DNA of 64,000 nt, taken from contig NC_013222.1 of the NCBI RefSeq assembly GCF_000024125.1, positions 1,900,501-1,964,500 on the forward strand. Direction: 5' to 3'. Below are positions 13,693-37,674 of the stretch, piece by piece. Source of the stretch: Robiginitalea biformata HTCC2501. GTDB taxonomy: Bacteria > Bacteroidota > Bacteroidia > Flavobacteriales > Flavobacteriaceae. The stretch's first letter is position 1; each line of letters begins with the position of its first letter. The notes under the pieces were generated by a model that saw only the letters and a list, made by a program, of their open reading frames with translations, did not search any database and had not been told where the DNA came from. The position numbers were made by a program, and so were the translations under genes.

Positions 13693-14130
13693 AAGCTTAT
13701 AAGATTTAGAATCAAATAATTAACGCCTTCGGAACCCAATAATTGTAATTGAGGTATTTATTTTTAGCACGCTGCTTATCATCCGAGCAGTGCTATTGAT
13801 GGTAGCTTACTCTAAAGATGGTGAAACCATTGATACTTCTGATACCTCATAAGCATTACCGCAATGATATGTCAGGGGTGAAGGGTTTTTGCGAATCATA
13901 ATAATAGTGTTGCTTGTGAATATTGGATTTAGCAACAAATGCAGGGTGCCTGGAGGCGAAGAACAACTTTTGGTTTCCTGCCTTGCAGGAAAAATTAACA
14001 TCGGCAAAAGCGAGCCTCAGCCGGAGCCCACTTAAGCCGGTTAATTCTTTGATCACCGGGTTTGATTTGAAAGTGAAATTCGCGAAAAATATGGAAGGTG
14101 GGGGAGCGGGGGAATGGGGTTGGTCTCTAG
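13693..14130. other. Gene-free 438-bp stretch ending in a site relic
   Basis: No convincing reading frame is present on either strand. The last 75 bases are a diverged right half of a family A site (listed separately). The middle contains GAGCCT and AGCCGG words that could be worn parts of the same site's central stems. The rest shows nothing that I can assign. Confidence 0.5.
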
Positions 14131-14132
14131 TT
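14057..14132. repeat. att26: diverged right half of a family A site
   Basis: The stretch keeps the order ACCGGGTTTGATTTG, AGTGAAATT, a GAAAAA run, GGTGGGGGAG, GGAATGGGGT and a closing GTT core at 14130-14132. All are also found in intact copies, for example at 30070-30158. The left half is not recognisable. It is the most distal clear member of the family before the 5.4-kb relic. Confidence 0.6.
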
Positions 14133-14568
14133 AGCCACAGTTGTTTTTCACCTTCTCCAATGCTTTGGAAAATGCATTTGTCATGGATTCTAGATGTTCA
14201 TCCATAATATCTATTTCAACGACAAGCGTATTCACTTTTTTTCCTTCAACTATCCTGTAGATTTCGGTTGCTCCCGACCATTTTTTTACCTCATCATTTA
14301 AGGGGAGTTCCTTTCCGTTTTCCACCAATCCGATGTGCTTGAATCGAATTATTTGATTCGGAATATGCTTGTCTATCCGGCTATAGATTCCACTGCCGTC
14401 AGGCCCCAGGAAATGTACATGGTTTCCTTCTTCCCAACTATCTGCTACCAGATGAGACCCTTCAAAGAAAACACTGGTCCAATCCCGATAGGAATTTTCT
14501 TCCCAAAGGGCTTTCCAAATAGTGGCTTTATCGGCCTCAATATCAACTGAAAATTCTCTTCTGTTCAC
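14131..14568 (-). CDS. SRPBCC/AHSA1-like protein
   Basis: The 145-residue protein starts REFSVDIEADKATIWKALW, continues with SYRDWTSVF and GNHVHFLG, and ends in a long helix (SMTNAFSKALEKVKNN). This is the order of the START-like helix-grip fold of the AHSA1/SRPBCC group, which binds hydrophobic ligands. No signal peptide is seen. The stop codon overlaps the GTT core of att26, so the gene fills its unit. The ligand is unknown. Confidence 0.75.
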   Translation of the reverse strand: MNRREFSVDIEADKATIWKALWEENSYRDWTSVFFEGSHLVADSWEEGNHVHFLGPDGSGIYSRIDKHIPNQIIRFKHIGLVENGKELPLNDEVKKWSGATEIYRIVEGKKVNTLVVEIDIMDEHLESMTNAFSKALEKVKNNCG

Positions 14569-14622
14569 GATGTATCCGGCTATTTCATCTTAAGCCCCGG
14601 GTTATGAATCCGTCCTGCCTAC

Positions 14623-14656
14623 AACGAACCCGACAAATTCAGCGAGAGGCAGCGTT
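14623..14656. repeat. att25: minimal or worn recombination site
   Basis: A 34-bp interval lies between an AAC core (14623-14625, in CTACAACG) and a GTT core (14654-14656). It separates two unrelated genes. Little internal pairing remains, so it is a degraded site at best. Confidence 0.3.
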
Positions 14657-15504
14657 TAGTTTTCTTTAAATGCTTGAATCATTTCCAGAGTAGATTTATG
14701 CGGTCTGCCTGAAGCTTTTTCAAAATCAGATGGCACATTGTTGGCGCCGCTGCGGATCCCTTCATAGATCCCTGCGATAATAGTTCCCAGAAAATCGCCC
14801 AAAGCTGCCCGGCGCTCTTTTTTGTAGGCTTCTACAGAAATCGATTTGAAAGATAGCGAAGTTCCATACACCTGATTGATATATTCCGCCAATTCATTTT
14901 GCGTGATCGGCTCACCCACCAGGTTGAGCGTCTCCCCATTTAAGTGGTCGTTCAGCAGCATTTGCGCGTAGGCAACACCCAATTCTTCGCGGCTCGTATA
15001 GCCGCATTTTCCCTGGGCTGCACAATTTATGATGCCGCCTTCTTTCACGTAAGTGTCAATGTACTCTAAATCGGGTTCAATGTAAATACCGTTGCGGCCA
15101 ATCACATACTCCAAACCAGAGTTGCGTACATCTTCTTCGGTTTGGCGGTTGCTTTGCACCACGGGGCTGAATGCGGTGTTTTCATCATCGCCAACAATGC
15201 TGGTGTACACAATTTTACGCACGCCATTCTGCTTTGCGGCTTCTATTACATTGCGGTGTTGCCGTATGCGTTTTCGTGGTTCGTCCATACCCGATACCAG
15301 CAACACCTTGTCGATGCCTTTCAGCGCTTCGTTAAAATCTTCGCGGCTGTTGTAATCGCCCTGGCGCACTTCCACCCCTAAATGCCCGGCTTTGGACGGG
15401 GTACGCGCAATGGCCACCACATTTTCTTTGCCAATTTCCCTGATAACGGCTCGGGTAATGGCAGCTCCTAACTGGCCGCTGGCGGATGTTACAGCTATTT
15501 TCAT
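14656..15504 (-). CDS. NmrA/QorB-type NAD(P)-binding oxidoreductase
   Basis: The 282-residue protein begins MKIAVTSASGQLGAAITRAV, the dinucleotide-binding loop of the NmrA group. KVLLVSGMDEPRKRIRQHRN and KIVYTSIVGDDE follow, as in quinone oxidoreductase 2 relatives. The middle NGIYIEPDLEYI fits the substrate domain. It is a soluble enzyme or a redox sensor. GC content is nearer the chromosome than in the neighbouring cassettes. Confidence 0.82.
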   Translation of the reverse strand: MKIAVTSASGQLGAAITRAVIREIGKENVVAIARTPSKAGHLGVEVRQGDYNSREDFNEALKGIDKVLLVSGMDEPRKRIRQHRNVIEAAKQNGVRKIVYTSIVGDDENTAFSPVVQSNRQTEEDVRNSGLEYVIGRNGIYIEPDLEYIDTYVKEGGIINCAAQGKCGYTSREELGVAYAQMLLNDHLNGETLNLVGEPITQNELAEYINQVYGTSLSFKSISVEAYKKERRAALGDFLGTIIAGIYEGIRSGANNVPSDFEKASGRPHKSTLEMIQAFKEN

Positions 15505-15589
15505 TGTTTAGCTTTTTTATGCCTCCAATTCTTTTTTCAAAGATTTAGAACTTTATTTAAACACTCCCGGAGAAATAGAGATATGCTTC

Positions 15590-15614
15590 AAGTGCCTGGG
15601 TGAAATTTGAGGTT
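15590..15614. repeat. att24: short remnant of a family A site
   Basis: The 25 bp keep AAGTGCCTGGGTG, equal to the left end of family A sites apart from one core base, and a closing GTT at 15612-15614. All central stems are lost. The next bases, GTTGTGC, pair with GCACAAT at 16418-16424 at the far end of the same unit. Confidence 0.45.
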
Positions 15615-15631
15615 GTGCGGCTATAGTTATT

Positions 15632-16393
15632 TTATTTCTTATTGAGGACGTCAATTAATTCTTGGGTTGAAGTCATTAATTCATCAAGATTTCCGGACCG
15701 TGTTGTTAGCATTAGCTGGCGGAAATATAAATTATTTTCAACTGCTTTAAATTCCAATGATGACTTCTCAAGTTCAAAGATTGGGAAGTGTTTCCGTTTT
15801 TTAATTATTGTGGAATCCACAGATATTTTAGGGTTATTTCTCCACTCAAAGTATCCATTCTCATTAAAGAATGGATGGAGGTGGTTCCAATTGTAATCAA
15901 TTTCTCTATTAACATGTAATGTCATCTGATCTACAAGATTATAATGAGAGATTATTCGTTGCCTTATCGTTTCCGGTTGAATCAATCCCATATTGCCACT
16001 TGTAACCAAATCGGTATACGTTGCGGTTTTCGGAGAAAATGGAAATGGTTCCATCACATCCATTAATTTTAAAATAAAATCTTCTTTTGAATTATTGACT
16101 CCTATAGAATTTAACGCATTTTGTATATCATTTATTTGTGTTATCTGGCTCATATTGCGCAACTTATGAGACTTGTAATAATTCAAATCTGAGTTAAGTT
16201 CGATTATTAAACTCTCGATATAATTTTCTGCAATCTTCTTTTCAGAATTGGTTTGATTCCAATTGTTAATGGATAATGCGATTAATATTCCTATCACCAC
16301 AAGTACAATTTCTCCAACTGCGTAGAGGAGGTACTTGCTGAGCTTGTTTTCGGCCAGCAGTTTTTGACGAATTTTTCTAAAGAATTTTATCAT
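15632..16393 (-). CDS. DUF6090 family membrane protein
   Basis: The 253-residue protein has the family N-terminus MIKFFRKIRQKLLAENKLS and one transmembrane helix (GEIVLVVIGILIALSINNW, residues 28-46). The C-terminal domain is helical and rich in Asn and charged residues. It is one of three DUF6090 genes that follow one another here. The N-terminal 45 residues are far more conserved than the rest among the seven copies in the window. Function is unknown. Confidence 0.85.
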   Translation of the reverse strand: MIKFFRKIRQKLLAENKLSKYLLYAVGEIVLVVIGILIALSINNWNQTNSEKKIAENYIESLIIELNSDLNYYKSHKLRNMSQITQINDIQNALNSIGVNNSKEDFILKLMDVMEPFPFSPKTATYTDLVTSGNMGLIQPETIRQRIISHYNLVDQMTLHVNREIDYNWNHLHPFFNENGYFEWRNNPKISVDSTIIKKRKHFPIFELEKSSLEFKAVENNLYFRQLMLTTRSGNLDELMTSTQELIDVLNKK

Positions 16394-16421
16394 TGGTTAG
16401 CGGTTGGTCATTATGATGCAC

Positions 16422-16465
16422 AATGTGTCCGGGAATATTGTGCACCAGCAAACAGTATACGCGTT
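16422..16465. repeat. att23: reduced recombination site between two DUF6090 units
   Basis: The site keeps GTGTCCGGG of the family A left end after a worn core (AAT in place of AAC) and closes with GTT at 16463-16465. GCACAAT and ATTGTGC around the GTGTCCGGG form a small hairpin. The central stems are missing. Confidence 0.4.
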
Positions 16466-16486
16466 GTCAGCTTTTCGTTTTTTTTC

Positions 16487-17227
16487 TCATTCCAAATATT
16501 CCCTTATTTGATTTTTAAGTTGAACGGTTTTTTCAAGTGCATCTTCTTTCAAAGCTGCTGCCTGGTACCTAAACCCGCCTCTGTGTTTAATCATATTGTG
16601 ATACTGCTGATCGTTTAAAAGCGCTTCATAATCCACAGGTGTAGAATCCAGGCCGTCATTAAACGGACTGCCTTCCATGGATTTTAACCGAAAGTACTTG
16701 TGATATAAAGGTAAAAGGGAACTGGGCCAAAACTGGTTTTCCAGGCGAACCGTTTTCGCTACCAGGGACTTATAATCATTGTCAAAAAGCGTGATAATTG
16801 CATTTCGCAGGCCATCCGAGCTGACGATATCAAAACCGCGGCTTTCTATAGAGCTAAATGCCGTTGTGGACAGCACGATATCTGGCGAATATTGAGCTCT
16901 GCCAAAGTGATAATCCATGCTGTCGTGGTAGGGCAATCGATTTTCCAGGATAATTAGTACCTGATTTACCGATCGTGCGGCTTTGTACTCTTCTGCTATG
17001 TCCGATTTTAAGGATTGTTCGTTGTATTCAAGATTTACAAAAAGTTCCTGCAGTAAGCGTTTTTCTACCTTTTTTTCAATTCTGTTTTGATTCCAATTAT
17101 TTATTTGGAGGGCAATTAAGATGCCGACGACCACCAGGAATATTTCCCCAATTGCGTACCTTAAATACTTTGCGGGTTTGTTTTCCTCAGCGAGTTTTTT
17201 GCGGATATTTCGGAAAAAATTGATCAT
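16487..17227 (-). CDS. DUF6090 family membrane protein
   Basis: The 246-residue protein has the signature MINFFRNIRKKLAEENKPA and the helix GEIFLVVVGILIALQINNW. It starts 22 bp downstream of the next DUF6090 gene (17250-18041), with no site between them. The two therefore form a two-gene unit and are probably co-transcribed. Their C-terminal domains differ, so they are not a recent duplication. Confidence 0.85.
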   Translation of the reverse strand: MINFFRNIRKKLAEENKPAKYLRYAIGEIFLVVVGILIALQINNWNQNRIEKKVEKRLLQELFVNLEYNEQSLKSDIAEEYKAARSVNQVLIILENRLPYHDSMDYHFGRAQYSPDIVLSTTAFSSIESRGFDIVSSDGLRNAIITLFDNDYKSLVAKTVRLENQFWPSSLLPLYHKYFRLKSMEGSPFNDGLDSTPVDYEALLNDQQYHNMIKHRGGFRYQAAALKEDALEKTVQLKNQIREYLE

Positions 17228-17249
17228 CAGCCATTTGTTTCAGTAGCGT

Positions 17250-18041
17250 TTAATAGGGGATATAGGAATCCGGATTTAAATTCGGGTATTTGGCCTGTAT
17301 AAGCGAATCTATATGGGAAATGTCGTCCTCAATCCGGTTGTAGTTTCCTTCAATCCTCGTGGTGAAAAAAATGACGTCGGTTAGTAAATTGGCAAACTCC
17401 CTATTGTGTGCCAGGCCCGGATTATTTGGCTCAAAGACCGAGGAATGTTTGGTGGTAATCAATTTGGCCTCCACGAGAATAGTCCTAATAGTGGTCCTGT
17501 CTACATGCCGGTTTAAAAATGGCCTAAGTTGGAAATCGACATAATCACTTTGGATCTTTTCAAACTTTATCAGGGATTCCTGATTGCGCTTCAGGTCGGC
17601 CAGTTTTTTGCGAAGTTCAGGGGAAGAGATTAACTTAAAATCGCCGGAGGAGCTAAGCACGTCGTATAGGGTGGTTGGCCTTCCGGATACCCAAACCCAG
17701 GTAATTTTATCAAGATCCTGGTTGAGGGATTCCTCGTTATAGGTAGAATCCTCATTGTTTATCCCGGCCAGTAATCGTTTTGCGGCATAGACTACTTCCA
17801 TCATTTTACTTCTCCCATTTTCTACCAGAAATTTATTGTATTCCAATTCCTCCGCCAGATCCCGGAAAATGCGTTGCTCTTCCCTGGAATTGATACGCTC
17901 TTGATTCCAGGTATTAATTTGCAGTGCTATCAGGATACCGATCACTACCAACACAACTTCCCCTATGGCATAAAGCAGGTACTTGGAGAATTTATTCTCA
18001 GCAAGTAATTGTCGCCTAACTCGTCTGAAGAATTTTATCAT
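17250..18041 (-). CDS. DUF6090 family membrane protein
   Basis: The 263-residue protein has the signature MIKFFRRVRRQLLAENKFS and the helix GEVVLVVIGILIALQINTW. It is the first gene of a two-gene unit with 16487-17227. The C-terminal 200 residues are predicted helical (LAEELEYNKFLVENGRSKMM, LADLKRNQESLIKFEKIQ). Function is unknown. The family may be an anchored scaffold or stress protein, but this is only a guess. Confidence 0.85.
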   Translation of the reverse strand: MIKFFRRVRRQLLAENKFSKYLLYAIGEVVLVVIGILIALQINTWNQERINSREEQRIFRDLAEELEYNKFLVENGRSKMMEVVYAAKRLLAGINNEDSTYNEESLNQDLDKITWVWVSGRPTTLYDVLSSSGDFKLISSPELRKKLADLKRNQESLIKFEKIQSDYVDFQLRPFLNRHVDRTTIRTILVEAKLITTKHSSVFEPNNPGLAHNREFANLLTDVIFFTTRIEGNYNRIEDDISHIDSLIQAKYPNLNPDSYIPY

Positions 18042-18070
18042 TTGGTTATTGGTTGGTCATAATGGAGGCC

Positions 18071-18212
18071 GACGTGACGGTGTAGGTATCTGCCTCCGCC
18101 TCCGAAGAGCAAATCAAACATGGAACCGGGAAGTTCCCGGGTTTGACTTCAGTTCAATTTAGGGAAAAAAAGGATAGGTGGGGAGTGGACGGAATCAGGC
18201 ATGCCCGATGTT
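18071..18212. repeat. att22: reduced family A site (142 bp)
   Basis: The right part is well kept: TGGAACCGGGAAGTTCCCGGGTTTG-like hairpin, TTCAATTTAGGGAAAAAAA, GGTGGGGAGTGGACGGAATC and CCCGATGTT. The left arm is shortened and its core reads GACG in place of AACG. It is probably a poor recombination substrate now. Confidence 0.6.
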
Positions 18213-18281
18213 GGCATTTGGGCATTTCCGGCAACTTGAAGCATGTTAGTTATTCAGGCTGATTTTTCGTAATTTAAACTC

Positions 18282-18422
18282 ATGGATATTCCCAAGGAGG
18301 CTTTATACATTCTCGTTCCTGTTATTTTTCTTGCCCTGGCAATGGGATTGCTGAATTACCTAACGAGAAATGGAAGAAATTTCAGAAGCAGCAGGAATAG
18401 AAGGGCGAGGAAGCAGGATTAG
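18282..18422 (+). CDS. Small membrane protein, 46 residues, antisense to the array
   Basis: The frame starts at ATG 18282 and encodes MDIPKEALYILVPVIFLALA, then a short loop and a very basic tail (RNGRNFRSSRNRRARKQD). One transmembrane helix followed by an Arg-rich tail is a credible small membrane protein. It is the only likely gene in the unit between the GTT at 18210 and the AAC at 18505, and it points against all other cassette genes. Size and isolation make it uncertain. Confidence 0.4.
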   Translation: MDIPKEALYILVPVIFLALAMGLLNYLTRNGRNFRSSRNRRARKQD

Positions 18423-18789
18423 CCTTTTCGATTCTGCAGTGTCCTTATTGAAGGTTTCCGGTTTAATATTTTTCAGATTTTAATTGTTTATTAATGACCG
18501 CCAACGGTCTGGATATGGCTCTTGGCAAAGCGCCGCGAGTTTTTTTGTATTCTCATTATTCTTAAAAACTATCCTTTGACGGATTAATCGGGGCCATTGA
18601 ATGTCCTGTGCTGCTAACATGCCCGAAAGAATCCGCTTTAGCTTACTTTTGTTGTTGGCACAAAGTCAACAAGCATCTGCTTTGCTTTCTCCTTTAAAAT
18701 ATTCACTTTTTTTCAGGCAATAGCGGTAAGTCGTAATTTTCTCGTTGGCAACGTGCATTTTATGGCGCTTAAGCGTACTATCAACTTGA
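18423..18789. other. Gene-free 367-bp stretch with a short-family core
   Basis: The stretch contains GCCAACGGTCTGGATATGGC at 18501-18520. This matches the left end of the short (family B) sites and pairs over GTTGGC/GCCAAC with the start of the unit at 18210. A closing right half is not clear; GTTGGCAACG at 18744 is a candidate. The last part should hold the promoter of the plus-strand gene at 18790, but no motif is convincing. Confidence 0.4.
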
Positions 18790-20172
18790 ATGAACTCTGA
18801 TCAAATGAGAATAGTCCCCCTTTTATCAATTCTGGCAATTCTTTCCTTTCATCCTCCTGCAATCAGTCAAACATTACTTGATAATTCCAGCCCTCCCAAT
18901 AAACTCGGGGTGTTCATCGATGGCTGTGAACGGTGGGATGGAGGCTGTGATTTGGATTATATCCGAACGGAAATTACGGCCGTGGACTTCTACCGGGACA
19001 ATCAAAGGGCGGATGTCTTCCTGCTGATTAACCGGAACAGATCCGGTGGGGGTGGAAGGCAATACCAACTGATTTTCATAGGTCAGCAAAACATCCACGC
19101 AGGAAGGTCGGACACGCTCTATGTAGATAATAGACAGACGGACACCGACTTCGAAGTGCGGGAAAAAGTAACCCGGTATATCAAATTGGGTTTGGCTCCC
19201 TATGTTGCGAAAACCAAAGCCGGGGAGGAAATTGAAATCAATATGAAGACTGGCTCCGGCATTGAAGGAGATTCCATACAGGATAACGTGGATCCCTGGA
19301 ATTACTGGGTGTTTAATGTGGGGAGCGATGCGAACATTGAAGTTGAGGAATTGAGCAGTGACATCAATATTGGTGGAAACATCAATATTAACCGTATAAC
19401 GGATAAGTGGAAACTGTCCCTGTCCGGGAGGATCGATGAAAGGCTGAGAAGAACCATCCAAAAAGTGCCGAGAGTGGATGAGAATGGCGATCCGGTGCTC
19501 GATGAAGACGGGAACCAGATCATCGATGACGTTGAGAATAATTTTGATGTATCCGAATTTGGATTCAGCCACCAGCTCGTGAAGTCTGTTTCACCCCAAT
19601 GGTCGTATGGATATGATTTGGCAGGGCGCCAGAACACCCGGCTTAATTATAAGTTCCAGGCCAGCTTCCGGCCGGCAGTGGAGTACAATTTTTTCCCGGA
19701 ATCCGTGCAGAATTCCAGATTTCTGAGGGTGAACTACGGGGTGGAACTCAGGAATAATCAGTATGTCGAAGAAACGATTAGCGGGGTTCTCGAAGAAACC
19801 AGGGTCCTCCATAGTTTAAGAACCAGCCTGGGGCTCAATAAACGCTGGGGAAACCTGGAGGTGGGCTATCGCTGGAGAAATTATTTGGATGATTTTAACT
19901 CCTGGTCCACCGGGTTGAATATTCGGGCGGAAGTCCGCGTTACCGGGAATTTATCTTTTTACGTAAGGGCAGAAGGCAACTATGTAAAGGACCAGATTTA
20001 CCTGGCATCCGGAGACTTCACCGAACAGGATATTTTAAGCGGGAGGGTAACCCTGCCCTCAGCGTATAACATCGATACCCGGTTTGGGTTTAATTATCGG
20101 TTTGGTTCTAATCTCAATAACTTCGTCAACCGAAGATTTTTTGGAAGGGCCAATTTTGTTGGGACTGATTGA
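18790..20172 (+). CDS. Secreted outer-membrane protein of unknown function
   Basis: The 460-residue protein has a signal peptide (LLSILAILSFHPPAISQ), with a possible second start at 18805. The N-terminal domain contains VFIDGCERWDGGCDLDYIRTE with two Cys and a Gly-rich RNRSGGGGRQYQLIF. An acidic linker follows (DENGDPVLDEDGNQIIDD), then alternating strands to a C-terminal NRRFFGRANFVGTD, as in a beta barrel. It is the only large plus-strand gene within the array. No recombination site precedes it cleanly, so it may be an insertion or a very old unit. Confidence 0.6.
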   Translation: MNSDQMRIVPLLSILAILSFHPPAISQTLLDNSSPPNKLGVFIDGCERWDGGCDLDYIRTEITAVDFYRDNQRADVFLLINRNRSGGGGRQYQLIFIGQQNIHAGRSDTLYVDNRQTDTDFEVREKVTRYIKLGLAPYVAKTKAGEEIEINMKTGSGIEGDSIQDNVDPWNYWVFNVGSDANIEVEELSSDINIGGNININRITDKWKLSLSGRIDERLRRTIQKVPRVDENGDPVLDEDGNQIIDDVENNFDVSEFGFSHQLVKSVSPQWSYGYDLAGRQNTRLNYKFQASFRPAVEYNFFPESVQNSRFLRVNYGVELRNNQYVEETISGVLEETRVLHSLRTSLGLNKRWGNLEVGYRWRNYLDDFNSWSTGLNIRAEVRVTGNLSFYVRAEGNYVKDQIYLASGDFTEQDILSGRVTLPSAYNIDTRFGFNYRFGSNLNNFVNRRFFGRANFVGTD

Positions 20173-20225
20173 TATTTCATTCTTTGCGTTACAGGCCTAG
20201 AAAAACTGATATCCTATTCGAATGA

Positions 20226-20291
20226 GGATTTGAAAATCCGCGGGGATTTTCAGAAGTAGGTGAGAACAAGCAATTACTTATAGCGCTTGTT
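20226..20291. repeat. att20: right half of a short-family site
   Basis: The perfect hairpin TGAAAATCC-GCGG-GGATTTTCA is followed by GAAGTAGGTGAGAACAAGC and AATTACTTATAGCGCTTGTT. The same 60 bases close att18 at 21690-21750. The left arm is missing, cut near the end of the plus-strand gene. The GTT core is at 20289-20291. Confidence 0.6.
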
Positions 20292-20295
20292 GTGC

Positions 20296-20798
20296 TTAGT
20301 TTTTATTTTCAAACTCGCTATCCTTTTTTAAGTGCTCTTTTCTTAAATTTTCTGCGTATTGAATAAAATAGCCGTCAAAAAATTGTTTATTCGGACTTTC
20401 TAAAAGTGCTCCAAAGCCCGGAGTTAGTACCATTCCATCGACTAATGATTTTCTAGATTCCCAATTTTTTTACTCAACATTTTGTTTTCGTTCTGCAAAA
20501 ATAGATTCTCAACGTGCCTTACTTCTGCAGCAAATAAGTGAAAACCATGATTATGTTCTTCTTCGGTTAAGGCATCTGGATTCATTCGGAAAGTTGAAAT
20601 TATTCTTGATGATTCTTTTGAAGAACCTAAACTTAGAAGTAGATGAATATCCAGGGCCGCAATCTCATGAAAAGTTGAGGCTTGTGTTGCTTTTGTATTA
20701 CTCCTTATTTGTAATCCAACGAAAATCAATGAAATGATAACAGCAAGGGCCGATATGATTTCAGCAATCAAAGCATATTCTTCAAGTATTTCTTTCAT
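20296..20798 (-). pseudogene. Membrane-anchored hypothetical protein, frameshifted at an A7 run
   Basis: The first 118 codons (20442-20798) encode one transmembrane helix (ISALAVIISLIFVGLQI) and the segment RSNTKATQASTFHEIAALD, then lose frame at a run of seven A (…SKKI). Adding one A restores a frame reading WESRKSLVDGMVLTPGFGAL and on to SEFENKN and a TAA at 20296-20298. The restored protein has about 167 residues, and the TAA lies exactly at the start of the unit. Either the gene is a pseudogene, or it is phase-variable, or the base call is wrong. Confidence 0.65.
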
Positions 20799-20882
20799 AA
20801 TGATCTTCTTTATTTCTTTTATTAAGAGTTCAACCCATTAATTTGCTTGTGGTTATCTTTCCCATTATCTGAAATTAAGTAC

Positions 20883-30353: not shown

Positions 30354-30361
30354 TTAAAGCT

Positions 30362-30592
30362 AACGTGTCCGGGTATGCCCCGTTCCGCAGCTTATTTTGC
30401 GCCACGGGCGGCGCCTTTATCCTTTGTGAGCCTGATGTTTCCTCGTGAGGGTAACGGCTACTTCAGGATGGCGCCCCAGGGACGGCGAGCAATACAAGCT
30501 TGGAACCGGGATGTTTCCGGGTTTGATTTCAGGTCAATTTAGGGAAAAAAGTTAAAGGGGGGGAGCGGACGGAATGGGGCATACCCGATGTT
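30362..30592. repeat. att8: family A site (231 bp)
   Basis: A full copy: AACGTGTCCGGGTATGCCCC, CAGCTTATTTTGCGCC, GGCGCC centre, GGCGAGCAATACAAGC, GGAATGGGGCATACCCGATGTT. The GTT core is at 30590-30592. Confidence 0.85.
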
Positions 30593-30605
30593 GTAGGTAG
30601 TGCTT

Positions 30606-30848
30606 TTAATTATTTGGAAGCGCTTCAAACTCTTTGCGCTTTTGTTCAAACCAATGCTTCATGTCTTCAGGGGATTTCATCTGCTTCTTCATATTCTCCA
30701 TAGCCTTTAGATGGGGTTTGTCACCTTTTTGAAACATCTTCATACCATGTTTCTTACTCATCTCTGAAATTTCTTCAAATGTTTCGGCTCGAAATACCTT
30801 ATCGCAAGCTCCTCCCAACTGATTACATGTCATCGATTTCATAAACAT
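30606..30848 (-). CDS. DUF1059-like small protein
   Basis: The 80-residue protein contains SMTCNQLGGACDKVFRAETF, the two-Cys opening of DUF1059 proteins, then EEISEMSKKHGMKMFQKGD and a charged helical end. It is soluble and may bind metal or a nucleotide; no role is established to my knowledge. Its unit has a perfect 10-bp terminal match, GTTGTAGGTA (30590) and TACCTACAAC (30877). Confidence 0.75.
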   Translation of the reverse strand: MFMKSMTCNQLGGACDKVFRAETFEEISEMSKKHGMKMFQKGDKPHLKAMENMKKQMKSPEDMKHWFEQKRKEFEALPNN

Positions 30849-30883
30849 TCTTCTAAATTAAACTCCTTCAAACCATTACCTAC

Positions 30884-31116
30884 AACGTGTCCGGGTATGC
30901 CCCGTTCCGCAGCTTGTATTGCGCCACAGGCGGCGCCTTCATTCTTTGGAAGCCAGGTGTTTCCTCAATGAGGACTTTGGCTACTTCAGGATGGCGCCCC
31001 AGGGACGGCGAGCAAAACAAGCCTGGAAACGGAAGGTTTCCGGGTTTGATTTAAAGTGAAATTAGGAAAAAAAGTTAAAGGTGAGCGGGAGGACGGAATG
31101 GGGCATACCCATTGTT
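30884..31116. repeat. att7: family A site (233 bp)
   Basis: A full copy with standard centre; small differences are AATTAGGAAAAAAAG in the bulge and GAGCGGGAGGACGG before the right arm. Cores: AAC 30884-30886 and GTT 31114-31116. Confidence 0.85.
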
Positions 31117-31128
31117 GGCTACAGTTTT

Positions 31129-31530
31129 TCACCACCACACAAATTCGAAATTTCCTGAAATCAGGCCAATCGTGTAAATCAAAATAACATTCCAGATAAA
31201 TGCTGATTTTGCTCTATTAGAATCATTAATCTGATCCTTCGCCAATAACTGTCTTTCTTTTTTTGAGATAATAGTTGAAAGCAAAGTTGAAAGTAAGAGA
31301 ATTAATACTAGGGTTAATGTTGGCGAATTAGAAGTTATCAATTGCCATACATAGAAAATAATAACAACCAAAATGAGATGTCCAATCCAATATAGTTTTT
31401 TAGTTCCTGTCTTATTATTAGAACCGAATATTAGTTTGAATGGTACATTCAATATCGTAGCGAGTAATGCAAATAAGCCCCAATAGCTTGCAATAAATAA
31501 TACTACTAGCGTAATTATTTTTGTTGTCAT
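31129..31530 (-). CDS. Multi-pass membrane protein, 133 residues
   Basis: The protein has four hydrophobic segments (ITLVVLFIASYWGLFALLAT, WIGHLILVVIIFYVWQLI, LTLVLILLLSTLLSTII, SAFIWNVILIYTIGLI). It resembles no family that I know. The unit is bounded by GTTGGCTACA (31114) and TGTAGCCAAC (31557), a perfect 10-bp match, and the ATG is about 30 bases inside. Confidence 0.65.
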   Translation of the reverse strand: MTTKIITLVVLFIASYWGLFALLATILNVPFKLIFGSNNKTGTKKLYWIGHLILVVIIFYVWQLITSNSPTLTLVLILLLSTLLSTIISKKERQLLAKDQINDSNRAKSAFIWNVILIYTIGLISGNFEFVWW

Positions 31531-31563
31531 CTTAGGAATATTTTCAATCTTTTAGTTGTAGCC

Positions 31564-31795
31564 AACGTGCCTGGGTATGCTCCGTTCCGCAGCTTGTTTT
31601 GCGCCACGGGCGGCGCCTTTTTCCTTTGTGAGCCTGATGTTTCCTCGTGGAGGGTAACGGCTACTTCAGGATGGCGCCTCAGGGACGGCGAGCAAAACAA
31701 GCCTGGAACCGGGATGTTTCCGGGTTTGATTTCAGGTCAATTTAGGGAAAAAGTTAAAGGTGGGGAAGAGTACGGAATGGGGTATACCCGTTGTT
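31564..31795. repeat. att6: family A site (232 bp), identical to att1
   Basis: A full copy that is base-for-base the same as the site at 35357-35588, as part of the duplicated 1,071-bp unit. Confidence 0.88.
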
Positions 31796-31807
31796 GTGGT
31801 TAGTGTT

Positions 31808-32602
31808 TTATTTACTTAATTTCAATATTCTAAATGCACCTTGTATAACCAAAATAAAAACGATTGTTCCTATTATCAAATCAGGTTTGTTTGAATCCAA
31901 CAAATTCACCAAAACCCCAGCTATTATTACTCCTAAATTAATAATCACATCGTTTGATGTGAAAATCATACTCGCTTTCATATGAGCCTCTTCTTTGCTC
32001 TTTGACTTTTGCAAAATATAAAGGCAAACTCCATTAGCGATAAGTGCGAAAATCGAAATGATTATCATTGTCAAAAAGTCAGGAAGTTCTTCCTCTTTAA
32101 AAAATCTCCTTAAAACTTCTACAAATCCAATGATAGCAAGTGTTATTTGAAAATATCCAGCGAGTTTTGCAATCCTCTTTTTTCTCGTCAATGTTCCTCC
32201 AACCGCAAATAAGCTAATTCCGTAAACAAAGCTGTCGGCAAGCATATCCAAACTGTCGGCAACTAATCCCATTGATTTTGAGATTATTCCAGTTGTCATT
32301 TCGATGAAGAAAAAGACGAAATTTATTCCGAGTACAGACCAGAGTAATTTTTTCTGGTTTGAGTTTTCATTAAATTCCGTTTGGTTGGTCTGTTCGGTAG
32401 AGATAACCTTTCCGCCCAAATTCAGTTCAAGAACTGATTTTTCGATTTGGTCAATTTCACCGCTGTGAAAAATGGTCAGTTTTCGGTTAGAAATATCAAA
32501 GTCTAAATTCACAATACTTGAAATGTCGTCCAATTTCATTCGGATTAGATTTTCTTCAGATGGACAATCCATTTTGGTAATCTCAAATATTGTTTTGTTC
32601 AT
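31808..32602 (-). CDS. CDF-like cation transporter with N-terminal HMA-like domain
   Basis: The 264-residue protein starts with a metal-binding-like domain (ITKMDCPSEENLIRMKLDD, one Cys) of about 80 residues. A five- to six-helix cation-diffusion-facilitator domain follows, with metal-site segments ADSLDMLADSF and TSNDVIINLGVI. CDF proteins export Zn, Co, Cd or Fe in exchange for protons across the inner membrane. The fusion is short compared with full CDFs, having no C-terminal domain. Identical to 35601-36395. Confidence 0.82.
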   Translation of the reverse strand: MNKTIFEITKMDCPSEENLIRMKLDDISSIVNLDFDISNRKLTIFHSGEIDQIEKSVLELNLGGKVISTEQTNQTEFNENSNQKKLLWSVLGINFVFFFIEMTTGIISKSMGLVADSLDMLADSFVYGISLFAVGGTLTRKKRIAKLAGYFQITLAIIGFVEVLRRFFKEEELPDFLTMIIISIFALIANGVCLYILQKSKSKEEAHMKASMIFTSNDVIINLGVIIAGVLVNLLDSNKPDLIIGTIVFILVIQGAFRILKLSK

Positions 32603-32630
32603 TCAATCTTCTGTTTTTGACATTAACCAC

Positions 32631-32863
32631 AACGTGCCGGGGTATGCCCCGTTCCGCAGCTTGTTTTGCGCCACAGGCGGCGCCTGTATCCTTTAAGAGC
32701 CTGGTGTTTCCTCGTTAAAGACCAGGGTTATTTCAGAATGGCGCCCAAAGGACGGCGAGCAAAACAAGCTTGGAAACGGAAAGCTTCCGGGTTTGATTTT
32801 AAGTCAATTTAGTGAAAAAAGCTAAAGGAGGGGAGTAGGACGGAATGGGGGATACCCGCTGTT
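32631..32863. repeat. att5: family A site (233 bp)
   Basis: A full copy with AACGTGCCGGGGTATGCCCC left arm; in the bulge AATTTAGTGAAAAAAGC replaces the usual GGG. Cores: AAC 32631-32633 and GTT 32861-32863. Confidence 0.85.
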
Positions 32864-32883
32864 ATATGTAGGCAATAATTGCA

Positions 32884-33165
32884 TTATTTGAAAAGCCAGA
32901 TTACCGCCCAGACAATTAGCCCTGTAAAAAAAAAGGCGAGAATGTATGCCAAAATTTCCCATTGAGCATCTTTTTTTGCTTGTTTGCGAATTTGACTTTT
33001 AAGAATCTCAAATTCTGCATGTGAAAGCTTTTTGAACTCCACTTCTGTTTTTCCGGAAACCTCATAGAGTATATCCTTAAGCTCTCGTATTTTCCGCTTT
33101 TTAAGAATTGCCCGATTATTCTTTAAGCTAACGATAGCACTTAACATGCTGCCTTCACCACCCAT
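32884..33165 (-). CDS. Small tail-anchored protein, 93 residues
   Basis: A basic helical region (KKRKIRELKDILYEVSGKTEVEFKKLSHAEFEILKSQIRK, quoted in part by its ends KKRK and RKQAKK) precedes one C-terminal transmembrane helix (LAYILAFFFTGLIVWAVIW). This arrangement suggests a cytoplasmic domain held at the membrane. No family was recognised. The unit has a perfect 10-bp terminal match, GTTATATGTA (32861) and TACATATAAC (33219). Confidence 0.6.
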   Translation of the reverse strand: MGGEGSMLSAIVSLKNNRAILKKRKIRELKDILYEVSGKTEVEFKKLSHAEFEILKSQIRKQAKKDAQWEILAYILAFFFTGLIVWAVIWLFK

Positions 33166-33225
33166 TCAATGATCTTTTAAAATTCTATAGTATATCGTAC
33201 TTGAGCAGTTTTTCAGCTTACATAT

Positions 33226-33458
33226 AACGTGTCCGGGTATGCTCCGTTCCGCAGCTTGTTTTGCGCCACGGGCGGCGCCTTTATCCTTTGTGAGCCTGAT
33301 GTTTCCTCGTGGAGGGTAACGGCTACTTCAGGATGGCGCCCCAGGGACGGCGAGCAATACAAGCTTGGAACCGGGATGTTTCCGGGTTTGATTTCAGGTC
33401 AATTTAGGGAAAATAGTTAAAGGTGGGGAAGAGTACGGAATGGGGTATACCCGATGTT
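33226..33458. repeat. att4: family A site (233 bp)
   Basis: A full copy. Stems: GTCCGGGTATGCTCCGTTCCG with CGGAATGGGGTATACCCG; CAGCTTGTTTTGCGCC with GGCGAGCAATACAAGC; GGCGCCTTTATCC with GGATGGCGCC. About 65 bases between the second and first right stems have no partner. Confidence 0.87.
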
Positions 33459-33471
33459 GTGTGCAGTAGAA

Positions 33472-33939
33472 TTATTTATTGATAATCTTTTTTAGCAATA
33501 CAATTTGTCCCAAGTGATAGTAACAATGTTCAATTAGGCCATCAATATTTCTAAGGTAGTTTCCATATTTCTTATCAACGAAGTCCTTGTTAAGTTGTTC
33601 TTCGGAAATTTTTTCTAGTATTTCAGCAAGTTTCTCCGTGTCCTTCCAGAAATTACCTTGAAAAGCCATCCATTCGTTTTGCGATTGGATAGCAGGAAAT
33701 TCAAAGCTGAACTGATCCTTTATTTCAAGTTTACCAGTGATGAAAACGTTTTTTATACCGTAAATAAAATAATGGACATGTTGGGCAATCTCTGATATTG
33801 TATTAAAAGATTCAACCCTTTTTTCGGCAACCGTCCAATCTATAAATTCTATTTGATCTTTAAAATTTGTATTGGCAATCCATGTTCCATCTAGGATAAC
33901 CTCTCGGAGTCTGTTTGCTAATTCTTGACCTTTTTTCAT
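33472..33939 (-). CDS. DinB-like protein
   Basis: The 155-residue protein is all helical, with NTISEIAQHVHYFIYGIKNVF near residue 45 and LIEHCYYHLGQIVLLKKII at the end. Three His residues in these positions (IAQHVHY, EHCYYHLG) fit the metal site of the DinB/YfiT four-helix bundle. Such proteins act as thiol-dependent transferases or have unknown roles. The unit has a perfect 10-bp terminal match (GTTGTGTGCA and TGCACACAAC). Confidence 0.78.
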   Translation of the reverse strand: MKKGQELANRLREVILDGTWIANTNFKDQIEFIDWTVAEKRVESFNTISEIAQHVHYFIYGIKNVFITGKLEIKDQFSFEFPAIQSQNEWMAFQGNFWKDTEKLAEILEKISEEQLNKDFVDKKYGNYLRNIDGLIEHCYYHLGQIVLLKKIINK

Positions 33940-33969
33940 TTAAAGATTATTCTAGTGCATATTGCACAC

Positions 33970-34171
33970 AACGTGTCCGGGTATGCCCCGTTCCGCAACT
34001 TGTTTTGCGCCTCTGGGCGTGCCGACCCGACGACGGCCTGAGTAAGGAGGCACCAAGGGACGGCGAGCAAAACAAGCCTTGAAACGGGAAACTTCCAGGT
34101 TTTATTTAATGTCAATTTAGGGAAAAAAGTTAAAGGTGGGGAGGAAGACGGAATGGGGTATACCCGTTGTT
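33970..34171. repeat. att3: family A site with the variant central loop (202 bp)
   Basis: Family A arms with the alternative centre GCGTGCCGACCCGACGACGG and AAGGAGGCACCA, shared only with att9. Cores: AAC 33970-33972 and GTT 34169-34171. Confidence 0.85.
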
Positions 34172-34219
34172 AGGGTATGTTACACAACGCCATAAACCTT
34201 GAATTTTAAAATTGAGTCT

Positions 34220-34402
34220 TTACTTAGGATTTCCCTTTTTTGTTATACGAAGAATTCCACCAAATGCAAAGAATGAGACCACTAGTAAAACCTTATAATC
34301 ACTTAATGGATTATCTGGCCACATATCCAGAAGTGTTATAAATAGAGCCGTGGCATTTACAATAACAATTACCCAGAGTAAAATTTTAAATGCTTTCTTC
34401 AT
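34220..34402 (-). CDS. Small two-helix membrane protein (60 residues)
   Basis: Two hydrophobic segments (ILLWVIVIVNATALFITLL and YKVLLVVSFFAFGGIL) flank an acidic loop, and the end is ITKKGNPK. It is the only frame in a unit of about 240 bp bounded by GTTAGGGTAT (34169) and ATACCCTAAC (34410), a perfect 10-bp match. Function is unknown. Confidence 0.6.
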   Translation of the reverse strand: MKKAFKILLWVIVIVNATALFITLLDMWPDNPLSDYKVLLVVSFFAFGGILRITKKGNPK

Positions 34403-34416
34403 TTTTAATATACCCT

Positions 34417-34468
34417 AACGGTTTGGCTATGGCACGTGTCCCGAAGGGCATGTGCTATAGCCGTTGTT
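34417..34468. repeat. att2: short-family (B) site (52 bp)
   Basis: AACGGTTTGGCTATGGCAC pairs with GTGCTATAGCCGTTGTT (11-bp stem with one mismatch). The apex holds TCCCGAAGGG, a 3-bp stem with a 4-base loop. It is the best short site, lying two units from the recombinase. Confidence 0.78.
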
Positions 34469-34505
34469 GTGCGGTCGGCTTTTTTATTTTTTTCAACTTC
34501 ATCAT

Positions 34506-34712
34506 TTAACAGCAACTTGTCCCTTGTTGGATTGGTGGACATTTCACTGTTCCGTAACTACAATACACGCAACAGTCGCCTTGTTTTGGCTTTAATACTT
34601 TCTCGCAGTTATCACACTCGTAAAAGAATTGACAAGCATCTGTCGGCATAGTCTCCGCCTTTTTATGTCCGCAGTTGGGGCAAGTGATTATTGATTGTAG
34701 TTCTATGTTCAT
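34506..34712 (-). CDS. GDCCVxC domain protein
   Basis: The 68-residue protein has CPNCGH, CDNCEKV and the namesake GDCCVYCSYG, and ends CC. It is rich in Cys pairs that can bind soft metals. The start overlaps the stop of the MerTP gene as ATGA, which indicates translational coupling. Such small proteins are found beside mercury transport genes, so binding of Hg(II) or another thiophilic metal is likely. It is the second gene of cassette C2. Confidence 0.82.
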   Translation of the reverse strand: MNIELQSIITCPNCGHKKAETMPTDACQFFYECDNCEKVLKPKQGDCCVYCSYGTVKCPPIQQGTSCC

Positions 34713-35311
34713 TTAATTTCTTTCTTGTCCGTTACTGAATAGCCTGTTTTTTCAATGGCTTCTTCTATTTCTTCAATGCCTGTTTGGGCCTGGTCAAATT
34801 CAATGATTGCATTTCCGTTTTCGTAAGACGCAGTAGTCTGGATAATTCCTGTCAGTTTATTTACTTCCTGATTTACGTGTTCTTCACAACCCGAGCAAGT
34901 CATTCCGTTTATTTTGAATTCGGCTGTCTGAATTTTTGATCGGTCGGTGACAACTGTTGTATTTTCTGTCTGTGGGAAGAATACGTTTGCATAAGTTGGA
35001 AATGAAAGCATTAGTCCTGCAAAAACTGTCACAATAGCTAAAAATTTCTTTGTCTGAATGAAAGGAGTTTTTTCAGTTGTATCGCAGTCGCAGTCAATTT
35101 GTTTTTGCGGTTTCAGTTTTTGATACCATGCGAACCCAAGCACCAAAACTGTCAGTCCGATTAAATACGGTCGCAAAGGGTCAAGCCAAGAAAATGTCGA
35201 GGCGAGTCCACTTGTCCCTGCCAACAAAGCCAAAACAGGTGTAATACAGCAAAGGGAAGCCGAAATTGCTGTTAAAAGTCCAAGTCCTGTTAGTTTGTTT
35301 TCTGATTTCAT
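34709..35311 (-). CDS. merTP: MerTP-type mercuric transport protein
   Basis: From MKSENKLTGLGLLTAISASL the protein has 200 residues. The MerT part has SASLCCITPVLALLAG with the paired Cys in the first helix, and CDCD in the loop after the second helix. A third helix precedes a C-terminal MerP-like domain with the metal-binding GMTCSGCEEHVNQE. The fusion moves Hg(II) across the inner membrane. No mercuric reductase is in the window, so uptake alone would not detoxify unless merA lies elsewhere. Confidence 0.88.
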   Translation of the reverse strand: MKSENKLTGLGLLTAISASLCCITPVLALLAGTSGLASTFSWLDPLRPYLIGLTVLVLGFAWYQKLKPQKQIDCDCDTTEKTPFIQTKKFLAIVTVFAGLMLSFPTYANVFFPQTENTTVVTDRSKIQTAEFKINGMTCSGCEEHVNQEVNKLTGIIQTTASYENGNAIIEFDQAQTGIEEIEEAIEKTGYSVTDKKEIK

Positions 35312-35356
35312 TTTATTTCTTCTAATACTCTTTGTTGTCTTTTTCCGCTGCCGCAC

Positions 35357-35588
35357 AACGTGCCTGGGTATGCTCCGTTCCGCAGCTTGTTTTGCGCCAC
35401 GGGCGGCGCCTTTTTCCTTTGTGAGCCTGATGTTTCCTCGTGGAGGGTAACGGCTACTTCAGGATGGCGCCTCAGGGACGGCGAGCAAAACAAGCCTGGA
35501 ACCGGGATGTTTCCGGGTTTGATTTCAGGTCAATTTAGGGAAAAAGTTAAAGGTGGGGAAGAGTACGGAATGGGGTATACCCGTTGTT
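35357..35588. repeat. att1: family A site (232 bp) of the first cassette
   Basis: A full copy, identical to att6. It follows the cation transporter gene of the first cassette and precedes cassette C2. Cores: AAC 35357-35359 and GTT 35586-35588. Confidence 0.88.
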
Positions 35589-35600
35589 GTGGTTAGTGTT

Positions 35601-36395
35601 TTATTTACTTAATTTCAATATTCTAAATGCACCTTGTATAACCAAAATAAAAACGATTGTTCCTATTATCAAATCAGGTTTGTTTGAATCCAACAAATTC
35701 ACCAAAACCCCAGCTATTATTACTCCTAAATTAATAATCACATCGTTTGATGTGAAAATCATACTCGCTTTCATATGAGCCTCTTCTTTGCTCTTTGACT
35801 TTTGCAAAATATAAAGGCAAACTCCATTAGCGATAAGTGCGAAAATCGAAATGATTATCATTGTCAAAAAGTCAGGAAGTTCTTCCTCTTTAAAAAATCT
35901 CCTTAAAACTTCTACAAATCCAATGATAGCAAGTGTTATTTGAAAATATCCAGCGAGTTTTGCAATCCTCTTTTTTCTCGTCAATGTTCCTCCAACCGCA
36001 AATAAGCTAATTCCGTAAACAAAGCTGTCGGCAAGCATATCCAAACTGTCGGCAACTAATCCCATTGATTTTGAGATTATTCCAGTTGTCATTTCGATGA
36101 AGAAAAAGACGAAATTTATTCCGAGTACAGACCAGAGTAATTTTTTCTGGTTTGAGTTTTCATTAAATTCCGTTTGGTTGGTCTGTTCGGTAGAGATAAC
36201 CTTTCCGCCCAAATTCAGTTCAAGAACTGATTTTTCGATTTGGTCAATTTCACCGCTGTGAAAAATGGTCAGTTTTCGGTTAGAAATATCAAAGTCTAAA
36301 TTCACAATACTTGAAATGTCGTCCAATTTCATTCGGATTAGATTTTCTTCAGATGGACAATCCATTTTGGTAATCTCAAATATTGTTTTGTTCAT
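35601..36395 (-). CDS. CDF-like cation transporter (second, identical copy)
   Basis: The 264-residue protein is identical to the product of 31808-32602: an N-terminal MDCPSEE domain and a cation-diffusion-facilitator membrane domain with ADSLDMLADSF and TSNDVIINL. The ATG is 31 bases downstream of the cassette boundary. Gene dosage of a metal exporter and its first position may both raise expression, which is inference. Confidence 0.82.
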   Translation of the reverse strand: MNKTIFEITKMDCPSEENLIRMKLDDISSIVNLDFDISNRKLTIFHSGEIDQIEKSVLELNLGGKVISTEQTNQTEFNENSNQKKLLWSVLGINFVFFFIEMTTGIISKSMGLVADSLDMLADSFVYGISLFAVGGTLTRKKRIAKLAGYFQITLAIIGFVEVLRRFFKEEELPDFLTMIIISIFALIANGVCLYILQKSKSKEEAHMKASMIFTSNDVIINLGVIIAGVLVNLLDSNKPDLIIGTIVFILVIQGAFRILKLSK

Positions 36396-36423
36396 TCAAT
36401 CTTCTGTTTTTGACATTAACCAC

Positions 36424-36450
36424 AACTGGTTTTAACCCCAAGATATAAAA
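36424..36450 (-). other. Candidate primary insertion site (attI-like) between recombinase stop and first cassette
   Basis: Only 24 bases separate the recombinase stop codon from the CAAC core of cassette C1. They include the inverted repeat GGTT-TT-AACC at 36428-36437 beside the core. Cassette identity to C6 ends exactly here, so recombination took place at this point. The full extent of the site may reach into the recombinase gene. Confidence 0.6.
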
Positions 36451-37674
36451 TTAAAAACCATCCCCCCTCCGGGATAACAGCAGGTTTGAGGTAGTTTTAT
36501 CGGGGGGCGGGGTTGTTTCCGGCAGGAGCAGGTCCAGGGGGCTCTGGATGTCCAAGAGGTCCTGGCGGGAGACATGGGTATAGACCATGGTGGTTTCCGG
36601 CCGGGCGTGGCCCAGAAGTTCCTGGATGTAGCGGATGTCCACGCCCTGTTCCAGCAGGTGGGTGGCGTAGGAGTGTCGCAGCATGTGGGGGGTGACTTTT
36701 TTGAGGATGCCGGCCCGGCGGCTGTTGGCTTTTAAAAAGGCCCGGATGCTTGTGGCGCTGTACTGCTGCCCGGGGCGGCCTTCGGCCAGGTAGCGCGACG
36801 GGGCGTAGGCCGTGAGGTAGTCTCCCAGCAGGGGGAGGAGCCGCTCGGGCAGGACCACGCGCCGGTCTTTGCGGCCCTTCCCGGCCCGGACCAGCAATTG
36901 CCGTCGCGGGATGTCCACTTCGGCCAGTTGCAGATTGATGAGTTCGCCCACCCGCAGGCCGCATCCGTAGAGCAGGGCAGTGAGTGTGCGGTGCTTCAGG
37001 TTCCGGGTTTGCTGCAGCAGGCGCATCACCTCGGCCTTCCCCAAAACGCCCGGGAGTTTCCGGTCCTTCCTGGGGCTCACAAGCCCCTTGGCCTCCAGGT
37101 GGCAGGCGGGCAGGAAAGCCTCCAGTTGTTTCAGGGCGCTGATGGCCTGCCGGTGGGTGCTGACGGAAACCTTCCGCTCGAGTACCAGCCACTGCAGGAA
37201 GGCCTCCGCGTCCGTCTGGTCTGCTTTTTCCGGCGGTTTCTCGCCCAGGAATTCCAAAAACTGGGCTGCCATGGTCCCGTAGGAGGCGATGGTGCTTTCG
37301 CTGTAGCGCCTTCCCCTCAGGAACTGCCGGTAGGTATCCAGCAGCGTAGGGTTGGCTTCCCGCGCCAGGCGTTCCCTGAATTTTTCCACTTCGCCCTGTC
37401 CGGAAACAATATATCCCGCCTCCCTGAGGTGGCGGATCAGCCCCTTGGCGTGGTTCGGGTCCGGCAGATGCCAGAAGCCCAGGGTGGGGTCCCAGCGGGT
37501 ACCCGGGAACTGTTTGATGCATTCCTTGGCCGCAAAGGAATACCGGAAGGTCACCCGCAGGTAGTCGCGCCCCTTGAACTGGTAAGCGGAGAGTCGGAAT
37601 CGCGTCGGCATGACGGGAAGGTACCTCCATTCCCTGCAGGTGGGTTGCAGTGGGGAAGGGGGCGCCCCGTTCAT
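36451..37674 (-). CDS. Tyrosine recombinase of the cassette array (XerC/D-like, not IntI)
   Basis: The frame has 407 residues; a start at 37611 (MPTRFRL) is also possible. Residues 23-90 form an extra N-terminal domain with FPGTRWDPTLGFWHLP, somewhat like a HARP domain. The core-binding domain (about 108-200) includes FLQWLVLERKVSVSTHRQA, strikingly similar to integron integrases. The catalytic domain has R241 (YGCGLRVGE), K266/K269 (GKGRKDRR), H330 and R333 (HMLRHSYAT), H356 (LLGHA) and Y365 (MVYTHVS). It ends QSPLDLL, another integron-integrase-like feature. The segment between GKGRKD and HMLRH is about 40 residues shorter than in IntI1, so the IntI-specific insertion is absent. GC content matches the chromosome, unlike the cassettes. 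Confidence 0.9.
   Translation of the reverse strand: MNGAPPSPLQPTCREWRYLPVMPTRFRLSAYQFKGRDYLRVTFRYSFAAKECIKQFPGTRWDPTLGFWHLPDPNHAKGLIRHLREAGYIVSGQGEVEKFRERLAREANPTLLDTYRQFLRGRRYSESTIASYGTMAAQFLEFLGEKPPEKADQTDAEAFLQWLVLERKVSVSTHRQAISALKQLEAFLPACHLEAKGLVSPRKDRKLPGVLGKAEVMRLLQQTRNLKHRTLTALLYGCGLRVGELINLQLAEVDIPRRQLLVRAGKGRKDRRVVLPERLLPLLGDYLTAYAPSRYLAEGRPGQQYSATSIRAFLKANSRRAGILKKVTPHMLRHSYATHLLEQGVDIRYIQELLGHARPETTMVYTHVSRQDLLDIQSPLDLLLPETTPPPDKTTSNLLLSRRGDGF

Follow-up and report, generated by a model that had tools for sequence, protein, structure and literature searches.

The window analysed here is a stretch of 64,000 nucleotides (nt) covering positions 1900501 to 1964500 (G000:C1) of the single-contig genome of Robiginitalea biformata HTCC2501 (3,530,383 bases). 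On its minus strand lies a gene for a tyrosine recombinase of 407 amino acids (aa; 36451 to 37674), followed by mostly one-gene units of unrelated kinds, which end in imperfect palindromes bordered by YAAC and GTTR. The recombinase gene and the adjoining array stand where a sequence-only reading had placed them, and its estimate of about 25 units is roughly right. We argue that this chromosomal locus very probably serves as a platform for capturing gene cassettes, in the manner of an integron.

The cargo includes genes for cation efflux, MerT/HMA, glyoxalase, BD-FAE hydrolase, ABM, cupin, amidohydrolase, SnoaL and DUF6090 proteins, and several array genes received no family assignment in family searches of the window proteins. 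The G+C content (GC) is 63% in the recombinase gene, 39% in the array and 56% and 47% in the flanks; the earlier description had AT-rich cargo and a recombinase of chromosome-like GC. The same description had all units on one strand, which holds for the mostly one-gene units on the minus strand but not for a 460-aa open reading frame (ORF) inside the array, at 18790 to 20172 on the plus strand. Six DUF6090-type membrane-protein genes lie in the array (15632 to 18041, 24411 to 26026 and 29169 to 29930), and similar genes recur in the corresponding stretches of relatives.

The cassettes begin GTTRN6A, and their initial 10 nt form the reverse complement of the last 10 nt up to and including their own YAAC, a relation that we call closure. 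The complementarity is between the head and the tail of one and the same cassette, so that the outer stem forms only when the cassette is circular. In the window, closure is perfect (10/10) in eight of the ten recombinase-proximal cassettes and 9/10 in the other two (36.4 to 29.1 kb). The array holds 24 head-tail pairs of at least 9/10, compared with 0 to 8 in 10 shuffles; single 9/10 pairs may therefore be due to chance, and the eight 10/10 pairs are firm.

Cassette 1 (35359 to 36425; cation efflux gene 35601 to 36395, site 35356 to 35589) sits directly behind the recombinase gene and is identical over 1,071 bp to cassette 6 (31566 to 32632; cation efflux gene 31808 to 32602, site 31563 to 31796), the identity starting and stopping exactly at GTTG; both cassettes are defined by this duplication, by the site scan described below and by a closure of 10/10. 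Cassette 2 (34419 to 35358) carries a MerT/HMA gene (34709 to 35356), a 68-aa ORF and a short site (34416 to 34469) found by the scan and by the covariance model R1 (see below), with a closure of 9/10. The ORF list, the scan and a closure of 10/10 define cassette 3 (33972 to 34418; 60-aa ORF, site 33969 to 34172), cassette 4 (33228 to 33971; 155-aa ORF, site 33225 to 33459), cassette 5 (32633 to 33227; 93-aa ORF, site 32630 to 32864), cassette 7 (30886 to 31565; 133-aa ORF, site 30883 to 31117), cassette 8 (30364 to 30885; 80-aa ORF, site 30361 to 30593) and cassette 9 (29961 to 30363; 61-aa ORF, site 29958 to 30159). Cassette 10 (29091 to 29960) consists of a DUF6090 gene (29169 to 29930), assigned by family search, and a short site (29088 to 29148) found by R1, with a closure of 9/10. 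Beyond it lies an older part (20442 to 29090) in which family searches identified HEAT-repeat, glyoxalase, esterase, ABM, two DUF6090, cupin, amidohydrolase, SnoaL and unknown genes; repeats, scan and R1 place its sites at 28158 to 28345, 26601 to 26725, 25164 to 25220, 23547 to 23673 and 21627 to 21751, the remainder being degraded. The distal, degraded part (14057 to 20441), delimited by repeats and Pfam matches, contains three DUF6090 genes (15632 to 18041), an NmrA-like gene (14656 to 15504) and the plus-strand ORF mentioned above; it retains site remnants only, with no site found there by the strict scan or by R1. All of these cassettes and parts are on the minus strand.

The strict scan required YAAC, a short spacer, a stem, a spacer 2 to 4 nt longer than the first, and GTTR. 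Applied to positions 14057 to 37674, it found 12 sites on the cassette strand, one of them doubtful (24257 to 24327), and none on the opposite strand; across 20 dinucleotide shuffles the mean was 0.8 and the maximum 3, and a 37-kb control part of the window gave 2. R1 was built from 42 sites of other genomes, 11 of 53 sites of 118 to 130 nt having been dropped before alignment, and its seven window matches all fall within the array, at the sites of cassettes 2 and 10 and the five sites listed for the older part. A palindromic site had been claimed behind every unit; the two methods together give 15 distinct sites, excluding the doubtful one, and repeat families add copies, partly truncated, near 26074 to 26156, 22752 to 22943, 20870 to 21134, 20231 to 20292 and 18094 to 18230.

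Sites range from 46 to over 200 nt, and the long and short sites of the window share one architecture. In the consensus structure of the 42 sites, 14 of the 15 pairs covary, with pair-keeping changes on both sides, and at two positions the bottom strand keeps a G.U, in 30 and 39 of the 42 sequences respectively. The two strands are not equivalent. Among 98 distinct sites (duplicate sequences were dropped), stem mismatches comprise 118 A x C, 7 G x T, 8 C x A and 16 T x G; the scan penalises A x C more than G x T, so this excess runs counter to its scoring. The conserved A x C mismatches are G.T pairs on the bottom strand, which is predicted to be the more stable one at 90 of the 98 sites, compared with 49 of 105 random 125-mers. 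In all 11 window sites above the higher score, the fifteenth base after YAAC is in an A x C mismatch, as is the tenth in 7 of them, and the bottom strand is predicted to be more stable in each of the 11.

Closure is not peculiar to the window. In 115 cassettes with both borders detected (those over 3.5 kb were dropped, here and in the sets below), the bases that follow GTT agree with the reverse complement of those preceding YAAC in the same cassette at 4.98 of 6 positions; the two pairings inside the linear site give 2.29 and 2.37, and shuffled partners 2.09. The result was repeated in 38 further cassettes from previously unused stretches of seven genomes, six of which were new (4.32 compared with 2.34). 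Closure is intact in 105 of the 147 cassettes of the combined set; position 11 is A in all 105, and its partner makes an A x C in 85 of them. In the 75 of these 105 whose sites do not exceed 150 nt, the bottom strand is predicted to be more stable as a closed circle than as a linear junction in 73 (means, -29.6 and -22.2 kcal/mol). Position 4 of GTTR follows the cassette (0.90, compared with 0.49 at random), which places the exchange before position 4. Core sequences unlike those of integrons had been proposed for this array; the crossover instead maps to a GTT/AAC core, as used by integrons, and the differences lie around that core, in the 10-nt cassette-specific closure, the G.T strand marks, the asymmetric internal loop and the positions after GTTR.

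An attI-like junction lies behind the recombinase gene, at its 3' end. In the window it extends from the recombinase stop codon to the first cassette (36424 to 36450, minus strand), its GTTG starting at 36426, as located by the start of the duplicate and by closure. Among 82 recombinase loci examined, 45 have their first site within 4 kb, and in 42 of these 45 the stretch from gene to site contains a GTT head that matches the tail of the first site at 8/10 or better (shuffles: mean 12.3, maximum 20); at 9/10 or better the figure is 37 of 45, against 2.6 for shuffles. By eye, the sequence before this GTT is of two kinds. One is AT-rich and ends much like ATATAACNA or TATAAACNA; the other is a palindrome of roughly 20 to 25 bp followed by a few bases, often CCAATT, and occurs in L050, L052, L053, L054, L082, L084, L154 and L157.

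The recombinase consists of an N-terminal domain (about residues 22 to 92), a SAM-like domain and a catalytic domain, as indicated by Pfam and NCBIfam searches, an alignment of 24 homologues and structure models. Against the IntI profile TIGR02249 it scores 219 bits, below the cut-off of 265, and the profile splits into two stretches on it. The segment from GKGxKDR to HxLRH measures 63 to 67 aa in those members of the array group in which both motifs were identified, and 106 to 108 aa in canonical IntI; by this measure the array recombinase lacks the IntI-specific insertion near patch III. In a tree, 15 IntI rows form one branch (support 100) with the array group outside it; the suggestion of another recombinase type is supported. 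Twelve Bacteroidota Xer rows, two of them from the window's genome, also form one branch (99), and the array recombinase is not among these host XerC/XerD proteins. Its best matches among solved structures are XerA chains, and the archaeal XerA profile NF040815 gives 213.9 bits, below the curated cut-off of 220. The predicted N-terminal domain most resembles the XPB damage-recognition domain (XPB/HARP fold), in a weak match. Homologues of the recombinase (H1 to H8) are carried by plasmids of Persicobacter, Chryseobacterium, Pontibacter, Rufibacter, Flagellimonas and Arenibacter. Recombinases with an N-terminal extension (L110 and L093) were also seen on contigs titled Chitinivibrionales and Undinarchaeales archaeon, the latter of which may be mis-binned; the Chitinivibrionales (Fibrobacterota) locus has two downstream sites by scan and none by R1.

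The same layout was found beside homologous recombinases in other genomes, downstream and on the recombinase strand. Twenty loci of relatives hold 89 sites on the recombinase strand and 6 on the opposite strand, with about 3.3 expected from shuffles; loci L060 to L115 (n=56) hold 63 downstream sites on the recombinase strand, 4 upstream and 9 on the opposite strand. R1 was run on 44 of 80 named loci and gave 64 matches, 63 of them downstream on the recombinase strand and one upstream on the opposite strand (L078). It matched nothing in 16 loci from outside Bacteroidota and Fibrobacterota, and it gave no match in 10 of 28 array-group loci, besides L078, with its upstream match only. Congeners G006, G007 and G009 have recombinases 65, 63 and 57% identical to that of the window, yet their stretches share with its array only DUF6090-type genes and a SnoaL gene (tblastn, 1e-5; in G007 the contig extends only 3.5 kb beyond the recombinase gene), and the stretch of G004 has in addition a 46% identical amidohydrolase. 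A fixed unit order in related strains, named at the outset as grounds for rejecting a cassette system, was thus not found at the species level. In Algibacter onchidii the cation efflux cassette gene has 86% nucleotide identity from the same GTTG onward and a different site behind it, and L050, from another genus of the family, encodes a 67% identical protein followed by a site. Cassette-precise duplication, together with the same layout beside homologous recombinases, supports the earlier claim of functional analogy to integrons.

These features suggest how the platform could work. A circular cassette would carry one site, which would fold as single-stranded DNA, most likely the bottom strand, into a hairpin. 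Its outer arm would consist of GTTRN6 paired with N6YAAC, the conserved G.T at position 11 and about 3 further bp, followed by an asymmetric internal loop, in most cases of 3 x 6 nt, beyond which an inner arm would contain two conserved G.T pairs. The recombinase would read the shape of the site through its core domains and probably also through its N-terminal domain. It would then recombine the hairpin with the attI-like site that follows the recombinase gene, the exchange falling before position 4 of GTTR. The newest cassette would then adjoin the recombinase gene, so that older cassettes would shift away and decay. A bias toward integration is likely, since only the circle has a complete outer arm. 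More tentatively, and with somewhat more doubt than conviction, we propose that this is a second cassette-capture system of Bacteroidota, in which a non-IntI recombinase uses an XPB/HARP-like N-terminal domain in place of the IntI insertion to read folded single-stranded sites, and in which the outer arm acts as an insertion ratchet: circles would enter easily, and array copies, their outer arm broken by the next cassette, would leave poorly.

In 296 Bacteroidota genomes, R1 sites occur in 143 and the recombinase (profile threshold E <= 1e-72, chosen by eye from a score gap) in 94; 81 have both and 140 neither. The window's own genome is among the positives, with n taken as 296; with 297, "neither" becomes 141. 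The conjecture that the system might be widespread in Bacteroidota is thereby borne out. In genus g48, ten recombinase-positive genomes have 2 to 11 R1 matches each, and seven negative ones have 0, 0, 0, 0, 1, 1 and 2. Canonical IntI exceeds the TIGR02249 cut-off in 84 of the 296 genomes, none of them in the window's family. The sites go with the array recombinase and not with IntI. The number of IntI-positive genomes is far above what the literature passages at hand suggest, and 20 IntI loci (among L160 to L183) showed hardly any arrays in site scans.

Several points weigh against the platform reading. The platform is proposed from sequence analysis, and the site energies are computed values (DNA parameters). 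The genome counts ignore kinship and draw on at most 6 scored candidates per genome for the recombinase and at most 11 for the sites; 13 recombinase-positive genomes have no R1 match, and 62 site-positive genomes have no recombinase. Four of the 20 loci of relatives (L046, L049, L051 and L059, the last with almost no sequence past the recombinase gene) lack sites on the recombinase strand. The 31 array-type tree rows do not form one clade, four changes being needed, which still leaves room for a single origin. Finally, no distal cassette of the window has intact closure, which decays with distance; intact proximal and decayed distal closure fits insertion at the recombinase end.

The same platform could instead recombine double-stranded DNA, as Xer does at dif, with the palindromes serving as unfolded protein-binding arms. 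The roughly equal closeness of the array recombinase to archaeal XerA and to IntI would suit such a mode, as would the long perfect palindrome just before GTT in some attI-like sites. We consider it improbable, however, since the one-sided A x C bias, with G.T on the other strand, suits folded single strands and not a duplex, and since closure varies in sequence while its pairing is conserved. Less probable still is an ordinary integron, in which plain attC sites would be served by canonical IntI and the adjoining recombinase would be a bystander. The GTT/AAC core and the gene-then-site order are indeed the same, IntI passes its cut-off in the 84 genomes noted above, and 12 of the 62 genomes that have sites yet no array recombinase contain it. 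Yet the scan of the window's genome gave no TIGR02249 match at E <= 1e-60, the array recombinase itself reaching 219 of 265 bits; R1 sites occur in only one of 20 Bacteroidota IntI loci (L172, in genome G064, where the array recombinase is also present); and where the array recombinase is missing, sites are if anything less frequent in genomes with IntI (12 of 59) than in those without it (50 of 143). That the palindromes are dispersed repeats or terminators (REP-like or MITE-like) accumulated between immobile genes is hardly credible: such intergenic repeats occur in many genomes and the distal copies here are degraded, but unit-precise duplication, a closure linking two unit ends hundreds of bases apart, one-strand arrays starting at the recombinase and the fact that in Algibacter onchidii the shared gene is followed by another site all speak against it.

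Upstream of the recombinase gene, an aconitase gene on the same strand (37681 to 39648) ends 7 nt before the recombinase gene start; it had no match at E <= 1e-100 among 9 congeners. An 18-nt tandem repeat (TTGTGTTTCC...) lies between the aconitase and NhaA genes, at 39668 to 39775.

The platform favoured here shares with integrons, in particular sedentary chromosomal ones, a recombinase gene, an attI-like site, a one-strand gene-then-site array, and cassette borders at GTT/AAC cores that belong to an imperfect palindrome, the exchange being placed beside G; a bottom-strand bias of the palindrome and insertion adjoining the recombinase gene are predicted here. It differs in its recombinase, which is not part of the IntI clade, has no IntI insertion and carries an additional N-terminal domain, and in that the recombinase gene lies on the cassette strand with the attI-like site at its 3' end. 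Of the integron core RYYYAAC/GTTRRRY the array keeps GTTR; the next positions vary by cassette and pair with its own tail. The array further has the 10-nt cassette-specific closure with its fixed A, in sites of 46 to over 200 nt. By its missing insertion and its place outside the clade it is not a canonical integron, although it appears to work like one. The 62 of 296 genomes with sites but no recombinase recall CALIN (attC clusters without integrase), although the site architecture is unlike attC and some recombinases were possibly missed, at most 6 candidates per genome having been scored. The array recombinase has the same fold and catalytic residues as archaeal XerA and host XerC/XerD but occupies a tree branch separate from host Xer; no cassette arrays are known for Xer. 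At the places where a passage on attC describes extrahelical bases (PMC6393395), the array sites have G.T pairs.

Passages of two papers describe the IntI insertion as essential (PMC8138268, PMC9668308). According to a passage of the first of these (PMC8138268), conservation of the insertion is incomplete in the "integron-like" tyrosine recombinase subgroup of Smyshlyaev et al. (2021), so members of the array group may already sit there unrecognised; the passages at hand do not mention an array or site for such members. Reviews, in the passage at hand (PMC8618304), count the Bacteroidetes phylum among integron carriers, and a passage of a complete-genome survey gives for Bacteroidetes In0 only and then one complete integron, in Salinibacter ruber (PMC9024848). 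Those In0 may be array recombinases, or canonical IntI, with sites that went unrecognised. The literature searched contained no account of such a platform; bioRxiv and most subscription journals lay outside its scope, so one may be in print. New here are the circular-only closure, the A x C/G.T strand marks, the attI-like junction behind the gene and the non-IntI recombinase with its weakly XPB-like N-terminal domain.

A parallel platform in about a third (recombinase) to half (sites) of 296 Bacteroidota genomes would alter the picture given by that survey, and would offer a source of many small, patchily distributed genes. The absence of the insertion described as essential in IntI makes the system a natural test of which integron parts are needed, and closure predicts a mechanism of directionality.

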